DNA from: a virus
Length of the DNA stretch: 20,850 nucleotides
Strand: one strand, 5' to 3'
IMG/VR virus record: IMGVR_UViG_3300025652_000697
Coordinates: 1-20,850 of that record
Part shown: piece by piece, positions 2,796 through 9,818 of the stretch
Numbering within the stretch: position 1 is the stretch's first letter
Layout of the letters: each line of letters opens with the position of its first letter
Position numbers and translations under genes: made by a program
The notes under the pieces: generated by a model
Database searches by the model: none
Told to the model about the DNA's origin: nothing
Seen by the model: the letters and a program-made list of their open reading frames with translations, nothing else

Positions 2796-3028
2796 TAATT
2801 AACCTTGAGTTCACTCACATCAAAGGCTGCATCACTGAAATCAGGAAGCGTACCTACGAGTTCACTCAATGGTGAACCCTCTGCTGGAAGTGCATCTATT
2901 CCGTTATCTTTTAAAAATTGTCTTGCAACATTAAGGTCAGCTGACTTTGCATCTGGGTCTTTGACACGCAGCAGTAAGTTCTCAGCTAATGTTTTATGAA
3001 GAAGAGCCATCATATCAGTATCAGTCAT
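2795..3028 (-). CDS. Terminase small subunit (T7 gp18-type)
   Basis: This roughly 77-residue, mostly helical protein contains the segment LNVARQFLKDNGID, typical of small terminases in T7-like marine phages. It lies directly before the large subunit, as gene 18 lies near gene 19 in T7, and would recognise the packaging site and recruit the motor. I chose the ATG at 3028 over the GTG one codon upstream (3031). A GAAGAGGGG ribosome-binding stretch sits at proper distance only from the ATG, and that ATG overlaps the endolysin stop by one base (TGATG). The assignment rests on size, position and that segment, as small terminases diverge quickly. Confidence 0.85.
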   Translation of the reverse strand: MTDTDMMALLHKTLAENLLLRVKDPDAKSADLNVARQFLKDNGIDALPAEGSPLSELVGTLPDFSDAAFDVSELKVN

Positions 3029-3549
3029 CACGCCCCCTCTTCAGCCATTTCCATGGCTTGATGTAATGTTTCTTTGTTTCGTCGTGACCAACCTCTACCG
3101 AAATGCTTAAAATCATCTAAGCCTTTATAGAATGCTTGCCTAACAGTATAAACGTAATCGATTATAAACTTAGGGTCTTTTTCAGCTACGAGCTGCAAGG
3201 TCTTTGGCCCAATGACACCATCTGCTGTTGCACCAACTGCACGTTGTATAGCTTTTGCAGGTCTACTCGCTCCAGAATTAATAGCCCAATCCAGACAGGC
3301 CCAATCAAGGCCAGATGGAAGTGAATCAAAGTGAATTCTATCAGCGTAATTTTTTCTATATATTGGAGCGACATCCTCTGGTGTGAGGTCACGCATCTCT
3401 TGTTCAGATACAGGTCGGTCAACCCAATCTTCATATACTCTTCTAGTAACGCCAAGGTTGGTCATACCACCCCTGTCGTTTTTGTTGTTCACATAGCCAC
3501 CTTCGTGGACAAGTACCATTTCTAGGCATTTGTTAAAATTTTCTCTCAT
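3028..3549 (-). CDS. Endolysin, GH108-type N-acetylmuramidase with C-terminal peptidoglycan-binding domain
   Basis: The 173-residue protein would cut the glycan strands of peptidoglycan at lysis. The N-terminal domain has the HEGGY motif, with the expected catalytic glutamate at E16, followed by DRGGMTNLGVT at residues 25-35, the pattern of glycoside hydrolase family 108. The C-terminal half (about 92-165, including VGATADGVIGPKT and FGRGWSRR) resembles the small peptidoglycan-binding domain usually paired with it. There is no signal peptide, so it needs a holin to reach the wall, and the gene just upstream supplies one. Its ATG overlaps the holin stop by four bases (ATGA). T7 itself uses an amidase encoded in the early region, so this lysis enzyme differs from T7. 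Confidence 0.93.
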   Translation of the reverse strand: MRENFNKCLEMVLVHEGGYVNNKNDRGGMTNLGVTRRVYEDWVDRPVSEQEMRDLTPEDVAPIYRKNYADRIHFDSLPSGLDWACLDWAINSGASRPAKAIQRAVGATADGVIGPKTLQLVAEKDPKFIIDYVYTVRQAFYKGLDDFKHFGRGWSRRNKETLHQAMEMAEEGA

Positions 3550-3917
3550 TTAGTAACACCCTTTGTTTTCTCGAATGAACGTAGACCACCAAGTCCGAGC
3601 ATACCCATAAGCACTGGCATCATGACTGATGTGTCAGCTTGTGGGACGACTACGCCTAGTGGTGATAAAAGCGGGCTAACTAAGAAGTTAATTGCCATGC
3701 CTACTACGCAAACCCATGCAACTGCTGGCCTCCAAGAAGATTGAAACCAATTTCCCTTGGCTTCCTCTTTGTTCACTGCCAGCTGTGCTATTGATAATTG
3801 TTGTGCGTGTTTTTCAGACATAGTTGCTATCTCATGAGCGAGTTTTGCAGCTACATCTTTGTCAGGCACAACTTTATCCAGAAGCCCAGCGACTGGGCCA
3901 ATCAATGCTTGTAGCAT
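3546..3917 (-). CDS. Holin, three-transmembrane GTA-type family
   Basis: The 123-residue inner-membrane protein is likely to open the membrane for the endolysin. An N-terminal amphipathic or helical region is followed by the conserved-looking GNWFQSSWRP (residues 55-64), then a hydrophobic segment at about 64-84 and another at about 98-114. This matches the holin family first described from gene transfer agents, common in alphaproteobacterial and marine phages. An AAGGAT ribosome-binding site overlaps the end of the upstream gene. The four-base overlap with the endolysin gene makes a holin-endolysin pair. Confidence 0.88.
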   Translation of the reverse strand: MLQALIGPVAGLLDKVVPDKDVAAKLAHEIATMSEKHAQQLSIAQLAVNKEEAKGNWFQSSWRPAVAWVCVVGMAINFLVSPLLSPLGVVVPQADTSVMMPVLMGMLGLGGLRSFEKTKGVTK

Positions 3918-3929
3918 ATTGTATCCTTA

Positions 3930-4382
3930 TTATTTTAGTGGATTTTCGGCTAATGAATCATAAGCCTTCCAAATGTCATCTATTTCCACTTGGAACGTAT
4001 CCAATTTATCACCGATTTGGTCAGTGATAGTGCTTGATTTTTCAACCATACTACGCAGTTCCAGAAGTGCCTTCTGCTGTTCCAGAATTGTCTGCATCTG
4101 TGTAGAAATCGTTGATAAACGTGTATTAAGACCTCTAACATCATTATCTGTTACCGCCTGTTCTAAAGTTTGAATTCTTGAGTTGAAGTCAGCTGCTCTC
4201 ACATTAAATATGTCAGATTCTGAAACAACTAAATCTATACCCTCCTCTACAGCGTAGAAGCGGTTTAGGGTGTCATATCCATAATAAATCGTACCGCTAA
4301 TTGCTGATAAGATTGGAAGGGCAGCAGCTATGTACCACCCTTTGAATGAAAAACGCCCAACTTTAAGTTCAGTGTCTTCCAT
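3930..4382 (-). CDS. Membrane-anchored coiled-coil protein, candidate spanin-like or envelope protein
   Basis: The 150-residue protein has a short cytoplasmic N-terminus, one membrane helix at about residues 16-35 and a long helical, Gln/Leu/Ser-rich coiled-coil body. This is the topology of an inner-membrane spanin (Rz), but I recognise no family, and unlike a typical Rz it is not followed by a nested lipoprotein gene. The ATG at 4382 directly abuts the stop of the upstream exported protein, with an AAAGGA site inside that gene's end. It lies between the exported proteins and the holin, so a role in lysis or host-envelope modification is likely but inferred. Confidence 0.75.
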   Translation of the reverse strand: MEDTELKVGRFSFKGWYIAAALPILSAISGTIYYGYDTLNRFYAVEEGIDLVVSESDIFNVRAADFNSRIQTLEQAVTDNDVRGLNTRLSTISTQMQTILEQQKALLELRSMVEKSSTITDQIGDKLDTFQVEIDDIWKAYDSLAENPLK

Positions 4383-5225
4383 TTACATGTCCTTTATGGG
4401 TGTGCCGTGTTGCTGCATATATGTATTTGCACCATAAATTGCAGTGGCATCCTTCATGTCATCCGTTAAATATCCTGACCAACCAGTTCCAGCATCTGCC
4501 CATGTAATGATAAATTCATCAGCTGCTTGCGTATAAGTGATTGCAGTATAATTCCCAGCGACCAAATTATTGGTAGCGGTATATGCATCAATAGATGCTG
4601 TTAAATCTGAATTGTTTGCTGCAGCCATGAATGCACCAGCTTTTTGAGCATAATTCTCTACACTGTCCAAAGCATTATTATATGTAGCTACTTCTGATGC
4701 TTGAATAGAATACTCATCTGTTTGAAGCATATCCTGTAGTGCAACCTGCTCTGGCTTTGTATCTGCCTCTGCAGCTATTGTAGCTACTGATGTCGCTGTA
4801 GCTAGAACTGATGTAGCACTACTTAATAAGTCTATTGCTAGGGTCAGTTGTGTCATCGATGCAGTATGCTCTTGGGTAAACAGCTGAGTAGCGTTTTGTG
4901 CTGTAGCGTAATCGTGTGCGATAACTTTATCTAATGCAGCTTTGTAAGCTACAAACTGCGCATCAGTTATCTTACCACCTTCTAGGGCATCATCGATTAT
5001 AATACGTCCAACTGTAGCATATCCAACTGCACCATTTGTCAGCTGTCCACTTGCAAGCAAACGATTATTAATTATGTCAATCGTTCCCTTCAGTTCCGTT
5101 ATCTTTTGTGCGCCCGTCTGGCTGTAGTCGGGTGGTGGTGGTGACTCTGCGAGTAGTCCTGAACCGCTCACTAATAGAGCGAGTGTCCCTACTGTTAGAA
5201 GCAACTTTTGCTTTATTTTCTTCAT
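4383..5225 (-). CDS. Exported helical protein of unknown function with signal peptide
   Basis: The first 26 residues form a classical Sec signal peptide: a MKKIKQK basic start, a Leu/Val-rich core and a likely cut after GLLA. SPPPPDYS follows. The mature part (about 254 residues) is Ala/Thr-rich and mostly helical, with no cysteines and no family I recognise. There is no lipobox, so it should be free in the periplasm or outside. The start is well supported: GGAGAAG lies nine bases before the ATG although both are inside the upstream gene. The first 149 bases overlap the end of that gene in another frame, so translation of the two is probably linked. Confidence 0.8.
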   Translation of the reverse strand: MKKIKQKLLLTVGTLALLVSGSGLLAESPPPPDYSQTGAQKITELKGTIDIINNRLLASGQLTNGAVGYATVGRIIIDDALEGGKITDAQFVAYKAALDKVIAHDYATAQNATQLFTQEHTASMTQLTLAIDLLSSATSVLATATSVATIAAEADTKPEQVALQDMLQTDEYSIQASEVATYNNALDSVENYAQKAGAFMAAANNSDLTASIDAYTATNNLVAGNYTAITYTQAADEFIITWADAGTGWSGYLTDDMKDATAIYGANTYMQQHGTPIKDM

Positions 5226-5844
5226 TACTTAAATCTTCTCCAATTCGTAAAAGAGTATCCCAAAACTCTTTGTCAGTTTCATATCCAACGATGTAGATTT
5301 GGGGATGCTGTCTATATTTATCTATTGCGTCTTTGCCCATAAGTATTTTACCCGTCACAACGTCCATTATTGGACAAGGTGTTGAGGCAAGCATCATGCT
5401 TTTAAATACACTCTGGCCTGAGTTTTTTTCAGATTTTGGAGTGGCAGGTGAACTACAGAGAACCGATATGGCACTCACTTGTAATCCTAATCCACCTACT
5501 TGCTGTGGTGCGCCAAGTAATCTTGCGTTCTTTCTACGGTTACAATGTTCGTCTTGTTGCATTGTACCTTGTGAAAACCCAAACATTGTTAGCTGTATTC
5601 CAGAGGTAGTGGGTAATAGGCAGCTATCGTTGCCGCCTCCACCCATCATTGTGGGTGAAATTGCTGACATAACTGGTGAAGCACTAGCTGCTCCAGCTGC
5701 GTTATAATTATTGGTTGTTGAGGCATTACCAGAATCAACATTGCTATCTTGGTAATTATTGCTGAAATCACCGTTTATATCATTTGCATACGCACCGTTT
5801 CCGAGCAGTATTAATATAAAGGTGTAAAAGAGGTATCTACACAT
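5077..5844 (-). CDS. Exported cysteine-containing protein of unknown function
   Basis: The 255-residue product starts with a signal peptide (core around FILILLG, likely cut after AYA at residue 20). An Asn/Ser/Gly/Ala-rich linker covers about 21-70. A compact part follows with four cysteines (C75, C101, C130, C157), which could form two disulfides in the periplasm. The pattern CNRRKNARLL with a later VLC and TPCP recalls exported proteins I have seen in marine phages, but I cannot name a family. The last 49 residues, rich in Arg and Thr, are read in a different frame over the next gene's signal peptide and may be dispensable. GGATGAAG precedes the ATG. It overlaps the lipoprotein gene by 34 bases. 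Confidence 0.75.
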   Translation of the reverse strand: MCRYLFYTFILILLGNGAYANDINGDFSNNYQDSNVDSGNASTTNNYNAAGAASASPVMSAISPTMMGGGGNDSCLLPTTSGIQLTMFGFSQGTMQQDEHCNRRKNARLLGAPQQVGGLGLQVSAISVLCSSPATPKSEKNSGQSVFKSMMLASTPCPIMDVVTGKILMGKDAIDKYRQHPQIYIVGYETDKEFWDTLLRIGEDLSNEENKAKVASNSRDTRSISERFRTTRRVTTTTRLQPDGRTKDNGTEGND

Positions 5845-6065
5845 TCTTCATCCATTACTTTTTGTATTTTATAATCTTCACACATCAACCTCTTGGCTGC
5901 TTCTGGATAACCAATGTAGGCAAGGGTTTGAGCGTTTAGATTACGTTCACAGACAGTATCTCCCATTGGACAGCTCGATGGGAAAGCTATCGGAGTATCA
6001 ACTCTAATTTCGGGGATACATGCTGTGAGTAATAAGGATGTCAGTGCTAGGCCAAGCCTAATCAA
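5811..6065 (-). CDS. Small lipoprotein, candidate outer-membrane spanin
   Basis: The 84-residue product begins with a short signal peptide and a lipobox LTAC, so Cys16 should be lipidated and become the mature N-terminus. Four more cysteines (C32, C39, C62, C75) follow. The frame has no ATG: an in-frame stop lies just upstream and the only usable start is TTG at 6065. That TTG overlaps the stop of the preceding membrane protein by four bases (TTGA), so translation is probably coupled. An inner-membrane coiled-coil protein followed directly by a lipoprotein is the layout of a two-part spanin. The sequence is not Pro-rich like Rz1, so this is a candidate only. Confidence 0.75.
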   Translation of the reverse strand: MIRLGLALTSLLLTACIPEIRVDTPIAFPSSCPMGDTVCERNLNAQTLAYIGYPEAAKRLMCEDYKIQKVMDEECVDTSFTPLY

Positions 6066-6322
6066 TCTGCCATCTTTTCAACAGCAGTTCGTATATGTTC
6101 AATATTAACATCTATACGTGCCATTGCGATAGCTTGTGTCTGTACTAACTGTTCTACTTTTGAAACTCGCTGATTAAATTCAACGATGTCTTGCTGGTTC
6201 TTTTCTATATCTGCCATCATCATAGAAACTATATAAATTATTGCTCCAGCTTGTGTGATAAGACCTAAAAGAAGGGTTGCGGGGACACTTCTGGAAATGT
6301 GCCAACCTTCACTTTGTTCCAT
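6062..6322 (-). CDS. Small membrane-anchored coiled-coil protein
   Basis: The 86-residue protein has a short N-terminus (EGWHISRSVP), one hydrophobic helix at about residues 13-35 and a coiled-coil tail to the end. Similar small proteins with an EGW-x-I/L-x-x-x-VP start occur in phages and prophages of marine bacteria. I know no proven role, though holin-like or inner-spanin roles have been proposed for such shapes. I chose the ATG at 6322, which overlaps the upstream stop by one base (TGATG), rather than the TTG one codon earlier. Its stop overlaps the TTG of the lipoprotein gene. Confidence 0.75.
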   Translation of the reverse strand: MEQSEGWHISRSVPATLLLGLITQAGAIIYIVSMMMADIEKNQQDIVEFNQRVSKVEQLVQTQAIAMARIDVNIEHIRTAVEKMAD

Positions 6323-6528
6323 CAATTAGGTTTAGTAGGCCATTCGCTACTATCTAAAAAAGGGTAAGATGAAATAGTTGTTGGCATATCTCTTATAGCT
6401 TGCCTGTAGGCAAGTTGTTCAGCAGTTGGTGTGCGGTCAGACAAACACCAATGGTCTGTTTCCGCAAGAGTAATAGCTCTTTCTCTTTTCATATCTATTG
6501 TCGCTCGTCGCGTTTGTTCATCACTCAT
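6322..6528 (-). CDS. Tail assembly chaperone-like protein (Phage_tail_APC type)
   Basis: The 68-residue soluble protein carries AETDHWCLSDRTPTAEQ, then YRQAIRDMP and a closing EWPTKP. This is the pattern of the short domain usually annotated as phage tail assembly chaperone and found just after tail fibre genes in many phages. It may help fold or trimerise the fibre encoded immediately upstream, although that activity has not been shown for most members. An AAGGAT site precedes the ATG at 6528, and the gap to the fibre stop is 20 bases. It is the first gene of the accessory block before the holin. Confidence 0.8.
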   Translation of the reverse strand: MSDEQTRRATIDMKRERAITLAETDHWCLSDRTPTAEQLAYRQAIRDMPTTISSYPFLDSSEWPTKPN

Positions 6529-6548: not shown

Positions 6549-9500
6549 TTAATAATAAATTCTAAGGCTACCGCTACCGCCGTAAGATGAGCTTCCACCG
6601 GGGTTGTGGCTACCTCCACCTCCACCACCGGGTACACTTCCATTTGCCCCTGTACCTGTGCCACCATTAGCACCGCCATTACCGCCATATGTAGAAGTAC
6701 CGCTATTTCGCGTTACGCTACTAATCCTAGAGCCGCCAGAAGCTCCTCCAAAGACACTGTTATTTTGATTAACTCCAGTGTGGCGATTTATATAAGAATA
6801 GTTGTACCCATAGCCATCGTGAGTATAGTAAAAAGCACCGCCATTTACTACTGCGGCGGCTGGTCCTATAAGGTTCATATCACCAGAGCTTATCATATTG
6901 TCAAAATCGCCTTCACGCTGATTTCTAGTTTGACTGCTAGTGCCACGTTCACCACCTCTTGCACGATATGTTCTACCCGATATAGTTATTTCGCTATTTC
7001 CACCATCCGTATATTCATAGCCACCGCTTCCTATACTGTAAGTAATACTGCTAGGTAAATGTTTCTTTTTAATATTAAAAATGACCGCCGCACCGCCAGT
7101 ACCACCACCAGCATTAGCACCATCACGACCACCGCCTCCACCGCCGCCTACAAGGTAAAATGTTACAAAGTCATCGTCGCCTATAGAGCTAGGTACACTC
7201 CAAGAAGAACCAGAAGTAAAGTTATGTTGAGGGCTACCCCAATTTACAGGGTCGGGTAAGCCACCGCCAGCAGTTGTCCATTGAGCTGTACCAGCAGATG
7301 AATACCCAAGTATTTGTCCAGATGCCCCACCGCTAGGGATATGGTTATTACCATTGCCTGTTGGGTGTGAGTAGTTATTAGCTGATGTTGCTATACCGTC
7401 TAACTTAGATTTAAGAGTAGTAGTGAAGTTCTTTTGAGTTAAGCCCCCATCACCCACAGAATAGGTTGTGTCAGTATTTACGACTGTTTCTGTAGCTGTC
7501 GCTAAACCAGTGACGTGTCCATATGCATCAAGTGTTACGTCTTGGATATATGTTCTGCCAGAGTTGTTTGAAGAACTCTGATTTGATGTATCATCATGGC
7601 TAATACTAATTGTAGTGTTTCCACTTTGGTTAGCTGTAAAAGTGCCTGACCCACCTAATGCACCAGTACCTTGTACTGTTAGTGTGCCATTACCAACTGA
7701 CACAGTGCCTGTTCCTACTGATTGAACATGCCCGTATGTATCAAAGGTAATATCTTGGATAAATGTATTTCCACTATTATCACTATTGCTAACACTACTT
7801 GTATCAGCATGGTTTAATGTTACATCACCAGTACCACCACCTGACAATCCAGAACCTGCAGTAATTGTTTGGTCATCTTTAGCACTGGCTTCTATTCCGT
7901 TAAGTTTAGTATGGTCAGCATCAGTAAATACATTAGAGTCACTAGCCGCTTCTACAGCTGCACGTATTTCTGCATTTGTTTGGTCTGCAGTAGCACCAGC
8001 TTCAATTCCAGCCAATTTACTTTCTTCTGCAGTCGTATAAGATGCTGTAGTATTCGCAAGAATAGCTGAGAATGCTTGTACGTTAGTACCTATTACTAGA
8101 CCTAGATTAGCTACTGCACCACTTGTAGATGCAACATCAGATAGGTTATTTGCACCAAACATAGCACCAGACAATGAAGCATACGCGGCAACCCATAGGC
8201 TACCATCATAAACCTTCATGATGTCGTCGGTAGTGTTATAGTACAATGCACCAGAAATCAGACTGTCACCATCATTATCAACAGTTACATCTGCGCTCTT
8301 CTGTCCTAAATACCTATCGTCAAATGAATCTAATGCAGCTAAAGCCGCATCCTTTGAGGCTTGCGCTGATGTGGCTGAAGTAGCCGCATTGGTTGCAGAT
8401 GTACTTGCTTCATTTGCTTTTGTAGTAGCTGTAGATGCAGATGTACTTGCATTAGTTGCAGATGTAGCCGCTTCAGATGCTTTTGTTGTTGCAGTTGTAG
8501 CTGAATTAGAGGCTTCAGTTGCTTTAGTTGTAGCAGTTGATGCTGAAGTTGAGGCACTTGAAGCTGAATTTGATGCAGCTGTTGCACTTGCCCCTGCATT
8601 TGTCTCTGCAGTTTCTGCATTGGTTTCTGCAGTTTCTGATGCAGTTTTTGCTGTCTGAGCATCGTTCTTGTGAGACAATGCTGTAGCCGCACTTGCAGAT
8701 GCTTCGCTTGCTTTAGTTGTAGCAGTGGATGCAGAGTTAGCTGAAGCAGTGGCACTATTAGCACTGGCAGTTGCACTTGTTGCACTTTCAGTAGCTTTTG
8801 TGGTTGCAGTTGCAGATGAAGTAGATGCCTCACTTGCCTTTGTTGTAGCCGTTGATGCACTTGTAGCTGCATTTGTTTCACTTGTTGCAGCATTTGTTTC
8901 TGAAGTTGCCGCATTAGTTGCTGATGTAGCTGCAGCATTCTTTGAACTTAAAGCATTTGTCTCAGAGGTAGCCGCTGCACTTTGCGATGCTGATGCCTCA
9001 GATGCTTTTGTTGTAGCTGTAGTTGCAGAGTTTGCACTATTTGTTGCACTCGTTGCTGAATTATTTGCTGAAGTTAAGGCTTCTGCTGCTTTTGTGGTTG
9101 CAGTTGTAGCACTTCCACTCGCACCTGAAGCACTTGAAGAACTTGCCGATGCACTATTTGCAGAAGCTGTAGCACTGTTTGAAGCATTAGTTTCCGATGT
9201 ACTTGCATTAGTTTCTGAGGTTGCCGCAGCATTTTTAGATGCTAATGAAGCTGCTGCACTTGCAGAACTTTCACTAGCCTTAGTTGTTGATATTGTTGCT
9301 TGTGCTGTGGCTGTATTAGCAGAGACAACTGCTTCAGCCGCTTTAGTCGTTGCAGTTGCAGCGTTTGTATCTGCAGTCAGCACTTCAGCCATGTTAGTTG
9401 CTACTGAATTTACATTATTAGTATTGCCAGCAACCGTTGTTACATTAGCCGCAATACCTGCCACAGTATTAACATCATCAATATTTGCGTTGATTGTGGC

Positions 9501-9818
9501 GATAGCACTATCTGCTCTATCCCTACTTTCCTCAGCAATAAGTCTATTTTGCTGGTGAGCCAAGTCCAAGTCAGCTTCAAATAGTGTTGAACCGTCAGTG
9601 AAATCTACAAGAGCATTCAATGGTGTTACACGCTTAATAATAACTTTAGCACCAGATGCTGGTGTTGCGGCTATATTAATCGTTGTTGAATTCAAAAATG
9701 TAAAAGTTGGAGTTGCTCCATTTACGGTTACAACTACGTCTGCTTGATTTATATATGTGAACGGGATTTGGAACTGGTTTGTCGACCCGTCAGCGACATA
9801 GTTTACAATGGATGCCAT
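6549..9818 (-). CDS. Tail fibre, T7 gp17-type N-terminus with long repeat shaft and glycine-rich tip
   Basis: This is the receptor-binding fibre, 1089 residues against about 550 in T7. Residues 1-145 match the T7 fibre base that docks on the tail (MASIVNYVADGSTNQFQIPF; LDLAHQQNRLIAEE). Residues 150-490 are a low-complexity Ala/Ser/Thr/Asn repeat built on ATTKASEAS and ATSETNA units. Residues 500-850 look like a fibre shaft, with three KLxGI motifs (near 601, 638, 805) and a duplicated IQD-x-T-x-D-x-YGHV module (687-698 and 758-769). Residues 885-1089 are rich in glycine runs (VGGGGGGG at 890; PGGGGGG at 1063) and aromatic residues, like glycine-rich adhesin tips. The AGGAG site at 9825-9829 fixes the start. 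The downstream half probably sets host range. Confidence 0.93.
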   Translation of the reverse strand: MASIVNYVADGSTNQFQIPFTYINQADVVVTVNGATPTFTFLNSTTINIAATPASGAKVIIKRVTPLNALVDFTDGSTLFEADLDLAHQQNRLIAEESRDRADSAIATINANIDDVNTVAGIAANVTTVAGNTNNVNSVATNMAEVLTADTNAATATTKAAEAVVSANTATAQATISTTKASESSASAAASLASKNAAATSETNASTSETNASNSATASANSASASSSSASGASGSATTATTKAAEALTSANNSATSATNSANSATTATTKASEASASQSAAATSETNALSSKNAAATSATNAATSETNAATSETNAATSASTATTKASEASTSSATATTKATESATSATASANSATASANSASTATTKASEASASAATALSHKNDAQTAKTASETAETNAETAETNAGASATAASNSASSASTSASTATTKATEASNSATTATTKASEAATSATNASTSASTATTKANEASTSATNAATSATSAQASKDAALAALDSFDDRYLGQKSADVTVDNDGDSLISGALYYNTTDDIMKVYDGSLWVAAYASLSGAMFGANNLSDVASTSGAVANLGLVIGTNVQAFSAILANTTASYTTAEESKLAGIEAGATADQTNAEIRAAVEAASDSNVFTDADHTKLNGIEASAKDDQTITAGSGLSGGGTGDVTLNHADTSSVSNSDNSGNTFIQDITFDTYGHVQSVGTGTVSVGNGTLTVQGTGALGGSGTFTANQSGNTTISISHDDTSNQSSSNNSGRTYIQDVTLDAYGHVTGLATATETVVNTDTTYSVGDGGLTQKNFTTTLKSKLDGIATSANNYSHPTGNGNNHIPSGGASGQILGYSSAGTAQWTTAGGGLPDPVNWGSPQHNFTSGSSWSVPSSIGDDDFVTFYLVGGGGGGGRDGANAGGGTGGAAVIFNIKKKHLPSSITYSIGSGGYEYTDGGNSEITISGRTYRARGGERGTSSQTRNQREGDFDNMISSGDMNLIGPAAAVVNGGAFYYTHDGYGYNYSYINRHTGVNQNNSVFGGASGGSRISSVTRNSGTSTYGGNGGANGGTGTGANGSVPGGGGGGSHNPGGSSSYGGSGSLRIYY
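8349..9371 (-). repeat. Degenerate tandem repeats coding the fibre shaft
   Basis: About 340 codons (fibre residues 150-490) of short units in Ala, Ser, Thr, Asn, Glu and Lys, with recurring words TTKASEAS, TSETNA and SANSAT. On the plus strand the same DNA reads as repeated GCTTTTGTTGTAGC-like words. Near-identical stretches recur at spacings of tens of bases, so the region can slip or recombine in frame and is prone to misassembly with short reads. Confidence 0.85.

Follow-up and report, generated by a model that had tools for sequence, protein, structure and literature searches.

Marine phages carry a conserved module of envelope-directed genes in which an exported protein with four invariant cysteines (C) is followed by a variable exported protein (D) and a membrane protein that ends in a short motif (E). 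The partnership between C and this motif-bearing E protein is the firmest new result of our analysis. In the window, by which we mean the whole 20,850-nucleotide stretch of IMG/VR record IMGVR_UViG_3300025652_000697, a lipoprotein gene (B) precedes the other three. A preliminary description of this DNA had delimited a block of five genes, A to E, and its border is one gene too wide. The core recurs as a module across marine phages, and because A is common in phages that lack B-E, the natural unit is B-C-D-E with A as a neighbor. Our tentative proposal, held at somewhat less than even confidence, is that B-C-D-E is an exchangeable late lysis module that may act at the outer-membrane stage and perform a spanin-like job with different parts.

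Layout of the block and its gene products

All five envelope-directed open reading frames were confirmed on the minus strand where the preliminary description had placed them, and dN/dS values of 0.01-0.44 (pairs with relatives where computable) indicate purifying selection on every one. The features are as follows, in order of transcription.

6322..6528, minus strand: tail assembly chaperone, the upstream border (Phage_tail_APC, E=6.4e-7)
6062..6322, minus strand: gene A, ATG start at 6322; 86-aa N-in protein with a single transmembrane (TM) segment and a heptad-periodic tail; separable companion
5811..6065, minus strand: gene B, TTG start at 6065; 84-aa lipoprotein with lipobox LTAC
5847..5963, minus strand: B residues 35-73, with the motif CxR..NAxxL..G..AA..[LM]CxD in common with C (hhalign 93%, HMM)
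5077..5844, minus strand: gene C; 255-aa exported protein with a signal peptide, conserved core of the module
5371..5628, minus strand: C residues 73-158, four-Cys core domain (52-sequence alignment)
5077..5225, minus strand: 149-nt C/D overlap, encoding the C tail and the D signal peptide in different frames
4383..5225, minus strand: gene D; 280-aa exported Ala/Thr-rich protein, the window-type occupant of a variable slot
3930..4382, minus strand: gene E; 150-aa N-in single-TM protein with a heptad-periodic tail ending NPLK
3933..3944, minus strand: codons for the E C-terminal NPLK, the conserved terminal motif
3546..3917, minus strand: holin, the downstream border (GTA_holin_3TM, E=2.9e-16; phrog_3427 holin)
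3028..3549, minus strand: endolysin (Glyco_hydro_108, GH108, E=1.9e-26)

The genes had been described as linked throughout by short overlaps or abutting stops. This holds for A/B (4-nt overlap), B/C (34 nt) and D/E (abutting), with a gap of 12 nt from E to the holin, but not for C/D, where the overlap is 149 nt, out of frame, encodes the D signal peptide and is kept in relatives. The earlier statement that T7 has nothing comparable here has to be withdrawn. T7 carries its 17.5 holin and its 18.5/18.7 spanins in the corresponding stretch of the genome, so the position of the block is comparable to that of the T7 lysis genes. The tail fibre gene of the window (6549-9818) encodes long repeats rich in Ala, Thr and Ser, and its product is rich in Gly in the C-terminal part. 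Scans for promoters and terminators gave no useful information.

A and E each have an N-terminal TM segment followed by a tail that is more heptad-periodic than most shuffled versions (1/500 shuffles as periodic for A, 8/500 for E), and the N-in orientation of both was read from charge distribution only. E also gave a few weak coiled-coil matches, below curated cut-offs. The lipobox of B occupies residues 13-16, as read from the sequence, and D begins with a signal peptide. Four cysteines of C (C75, C101, C130 and C157) are invariant across 52 diverse sequences, and the core of B aligns with this Cys core (hhalign 93%, whether the C is of the window type or from pelagiphages), with an HMM match of the C profile to B at residues 35-71. 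Common descent of B and C is likely, not certain, because the comparison covers only about 38 columns and the hhalign probability is a pairwise one.

Apart from phrog_20531, searches of Pfam, PHROG, NCBIfam, PADLOC and PDB returned no family that explains B-E. That family, to which no function is assigned, matches C (E=1.3e-8) as well as its pelagiphage relatives, with the window C as a divergent member. No sequence relatives of C or D were found in PDB, and the AlphaFold models (mean pLDDT 47 for C and 41 for D) are too poor for interpretation. In fold searches, D had no PDB match (best E=1.0), and C retrieved one unnamed viral protein (E=1.3e-4, TM 0.22-0.26). Existing labels on homologues were also rejected: the 'lysozyme' domain is absent from the E homologues CRP-207 gp73 (L001:3292-3870) and CRP-810 gp51 (L002:7384-7803), and the 'OmpA family' domain is absent from the C homologue CRP-810 gp53 (L002:5998-6750).

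The C-D-E module in marine phages

IMG/VR scans for C and E, together with searches of annotated phages, yielded 157 loci, many of them from identical or near-identical contigs. The order B-C-D-E was found wherever the contig was long enough and a window-type D was present, including in three otherwise different annotated phages, namely Roseobacter phages CRP-207 and CRP-810 and a Manatee Spring phage. SAR11-type phages carry C-D-E without B: in Baldr, HTVC023P, HTVC033P, HTVC115P, HTVC202P and Mosig, the C homologue precedes an exported protein, after which comes an E-like membrane protein with an NPL end, and this last protein lies somewhat further downstream in HTVC115P. A 53-aa lipoprotein is encoded directly 5' of C, in the position of B, in four SAR11-type loci (for example L221:4568-4726).

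The C family is large: two broad scans of IMG/VR each gave at least 600 stretches that match its pattern. Among the matches listed, 329 loci were reduced to 97 whose C sequences are at least 20% different from one another, and 78 of these had 3 kb of downstream sequence. A D-slot gene directly follows C in 75 of the 78, and 69 of those 75 products have a hydrophobic N-terminus. An E-type protein (N-terminal TM segment, 60-215 aa, ending [NKST]P[LM] plus 0-4 residues) is encoded in 73 of the 78 loci, whereas only 3 of 202 control N-terminal-TM genes of that size, taken from the same loci outside the module, share the terminal motif. The motif had been noticed on an early subset; among loci fetched afterwards it was present in 38 of 43.

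C was found in only 11 of 50,697 phage records, where no assigned function holds up, and a genome scan gave only 20 loci (L246-L265). The latter come from bacterial and archaeal assemblies of unrelated phyla, all derived from metagenomes or single cells, and are probably phage contigs binned with their hosts.

The D slot is variable. Its proteins fall into eight BLAST groups of 33, 22, 13, 2, 2, 1, 1 and 1 loci, the window type being the group of 13. The notion that D is always unrelated between phages must be tempered, however, as profile comparison joins several D types, either by a jelly-roll-like region at the N-terminus (92-97%) or by a tail at the C-terminus (88%). The window D type and that of MW202481 were not joined to other types by this comparison.

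Additional membrane proteins are encoded in the vicinity. A second N-terminal-TM helical family (beginning MPMKTVASL... and ending NGNGTH or similar) occurs near SAR11-type C modules (L176:9129-9494, L225:7806-8183, L237:5903-6313). Two small holin-like membrane families (phrog_38283 and phrog_2524, no assigned function; L126:4426-4866, L201:3323-3703) lie directly upstream of many modules and have no profile similarity to the window holin.

Gene A as a separable neighbor

The preliminary description had asked whether the five genes travel together. B-C-D-E are linked, but A is upstream in only 84 loci and is frequent in cobaviruses and autographivirus roseophages without B-E; scattered homologues were found for A alone. 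Relatives without B-E fill the slot after A in different ways: with genes for holin and terminase, with a membrane protein of the gp43 type, with a CHAP lysin plus an Rz-type spanin (phrog_1026, E=9e-8; CRP-804 and CRP-118), or with a SIO1-type unimolecular spanin (CRP-171), and several A loci have neither B-E nor a recognized spanin. Among 54 deduplicated A loci, gp43 and B-E never occur together (26 gp43 loci, P=0.003). B-E and recognized spanins (8 and 9 loci) also never coincide in this set, a result that does not reach significance (P=0.21). When B-E are absent, a 150-aa protein (phrog_32327, no assigned function) with a TM segment at its C-terminus occupies the slot after A in L266 (3781-4239) and about 45 A-bearing loci, and showed no co-occurrence with B-E in the 54 loci. 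In one locus (L310), an A close to that of the window has directly behind it, where the window has B-E, a C of the SAR11 type and a D from the largest group. In PADLOC, the helical part of A weakly matched PDC-M02B (E=5e-4).

Possible roles of the module

Three roles had been offered for the block: lysis, superinfection exclusion and virion-associated adhesion. Lysis has the most support, because endolysins are enriched near the module, canonical spanins occupy the corresponding slot in relatives, and carriers have no recognized spanin. In whole-record searches with curated families (GH108, M15, amidase-2, T4-type lysozyme and GH19), 7 of 16 independent records had an endolysin no more than 2.5 kb from the module, against 2.7 expected (P=0.01). 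For this count the window-type clade was entered once, distances were worked out by hand from coordinates, and matches in very long open reading frames were set aside as probable virion proteins. Within loci, endolysin density was 7.4 per 100 kb inside 2.5 kb of the module and 0.75 at 2.5-6 kb (26 versus 2, about 10-fold), a contrast that is biased upward because the search seeds came from module neighborhoods. Of the records with a recognized endolysin, about half have it far away from the module, including CRP-810 and Mosig (about 25 kb), HTVC115P and others. Whole-record searches for three spanin families (phrog_1026, phrog_13 and phrog_30566) gave matches in none of the 24 records with the module but in 4 of the 6 roseophages that lack it, a contrast that is phylogenetically confounded, drawn from hand-picked records and limited by how few spanin families it covers. 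A 2024 paper on autographivirus roseophages mentions only several lysis genes in the module (PMC11092137).

The resemblance to two-component spanins (lambda Rz/Rz1; phrog_1026 in CRP-804 and CRP-118) lies in the combination of an N-in inner-membrane helical protein with a short lipoprotein, in the late position with holin and endolysin, and in the use of the same slot in relatives. By hydropathy, heptad periodicity and charge, both E and A are predicted to have the single N-terminal TM segment, N-in orientation and helical periplasmic domain of an i-spanin, and B is a short lipoprotein like an o-spanin. Unlike those systems, the module has no sequence match to a spanin family for B or E, includes two extra exported proteins, has a conserved NPL end and a four-Cys domain, and keeps its membrane protein and lipoprotein genes apart: C and D intervene between B and E, and the A that adjoins B is separable. 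The SIO1/cobavirus-type unimolecular spanin (phrog_30566; ICBM1, CRP-171) is likewise found after or beside A in related roseophages, but it is a single protein with a lipobox and a C-terminal TM segment that is not homologous to B-E, and none of A-E combines an N-terminal lipobox with a C-terminal TM segment. No record searched carried both this spanin and B-E.

A spanin-like reading fits the anatomy, position and substitution pattern of B-C-D-E best, and we regard it as possible rather than probable. Under this model, E would be anchored in the inner membrane and extend its helical tail into the periplasm, B would be lipid-anchored, probably to the outer membrane, and C would be a disulphide-stabilized periplasmic protein sharing its Cys motif with B. 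D would be an exported effector that varies from phage to phage. A bridge made of B/C and the NPL end of E might load D and do no harm while the inner membrane is intact and the peptidoglycan in place; once holin and endolysin have put an end to both, the complex would disrupt the outer membrane. Against a lysis role, the B and E genes are not adjacent as spanin genes are, SAR11-type phages have C-D-E but no B, the two holin-like families beside the module are not homologous to the window holin, and jelly-roll-like D-slot proteins suit surface binding as well as disruption. A more doubtful extension is that C-D-E forms an exported phage machine of a kind not described before and widespread among phages of the ocean, in which E would be a rod with an NPL docking end, C a four-Cys adaptor (with B as its lipid-anchored relative in some phages) and D an interchangeable, host-matched effector, providing a lysis route unlike that of spanins.

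The main rival is envelope remodeling or superinfection exclusion, in which a coated or altered surface would block the binding of other phages, or of progeny to debris, with D as a variable surface binder and C and E as its export and anchoring scaffold. We consider this rather improbable. A variable D on a conserved C-E scaffold is what would be expected of something that meets host surfaces, the D-slot relative in HTVC033P is annotated as carbohydrate-binding, and lysis genes are not always near the module; yet B-E match no defense or exclusion model in PADLOC, so that this role gained no positive evidence there, and the module sits in the late region next to the holin in the window, with endolysins enriched nearby. 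It is more improbable still that the module is a phage-encoded system for surface fibres or aggregation, functionally akin to the curli clusters known in pelagiphages (PMC9599517, PMC7029224, PMC9004378). Those T8SS clusters are also multi-gene envelope modules moved between marine phage families, and a lysis role has been proposed for their curli pore (PMC9599517, PMC9004378); the SAR11-type C moreover has a Ser/Thr/Asn-rich N-terminal stretch. However, searches of Pfam, NCBIfam and PHROGs did not match B-E to CsgG, CsgF or curlin, and no CsgG- or CsgF-annotated gene appeared in the stretches read around C. Membership of B-E in the curli systems was rejected on this ground, leaving an analogy only.

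Similarly improbable is the reading in which A and B are an ordinary spanin pair, with C-D-E serving some unrelated purpose. The 4-nt A/B overlap, the N-in helical A, the short lipoprotein B and weak matches of A homologues to Rz-like spanin profiles (E 0.03-0.1; 0.1 for the window A) would suit such a pair, but A adjoins true spanins in CRP-804, CRP-118 and ICBM1 and thus does not replace them, while B goes with C-E, is also found without A, and carries the Cys motif of C. We therefore demoted the simple A-B pair. The least probable alternative is that the products are virion-associated or adsorption proteins, encoded beside the tail fibre and chaperone genes that adjoin the module in the window and in HTVC115P. 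It would be unusual for components of an assembled virion to have Sec signal peptides, a lipobox or membrane anchors, and in other phages the module lies away from tail genes; a virion role is judged unlikely in view of the predicted Sec-type N-termini of C and of almost every D-slot protein.

If the module does carry out an outer-membrane step of lysis, it would explain how phages of abundant marine alphaproteobacteria that lack recognizable spanins complete lysis, and it would offer a clear constant-plus-variable architecture open to testing. If it is instead a surface system, it would represent a widespread means for marine phages to alter infected cells.
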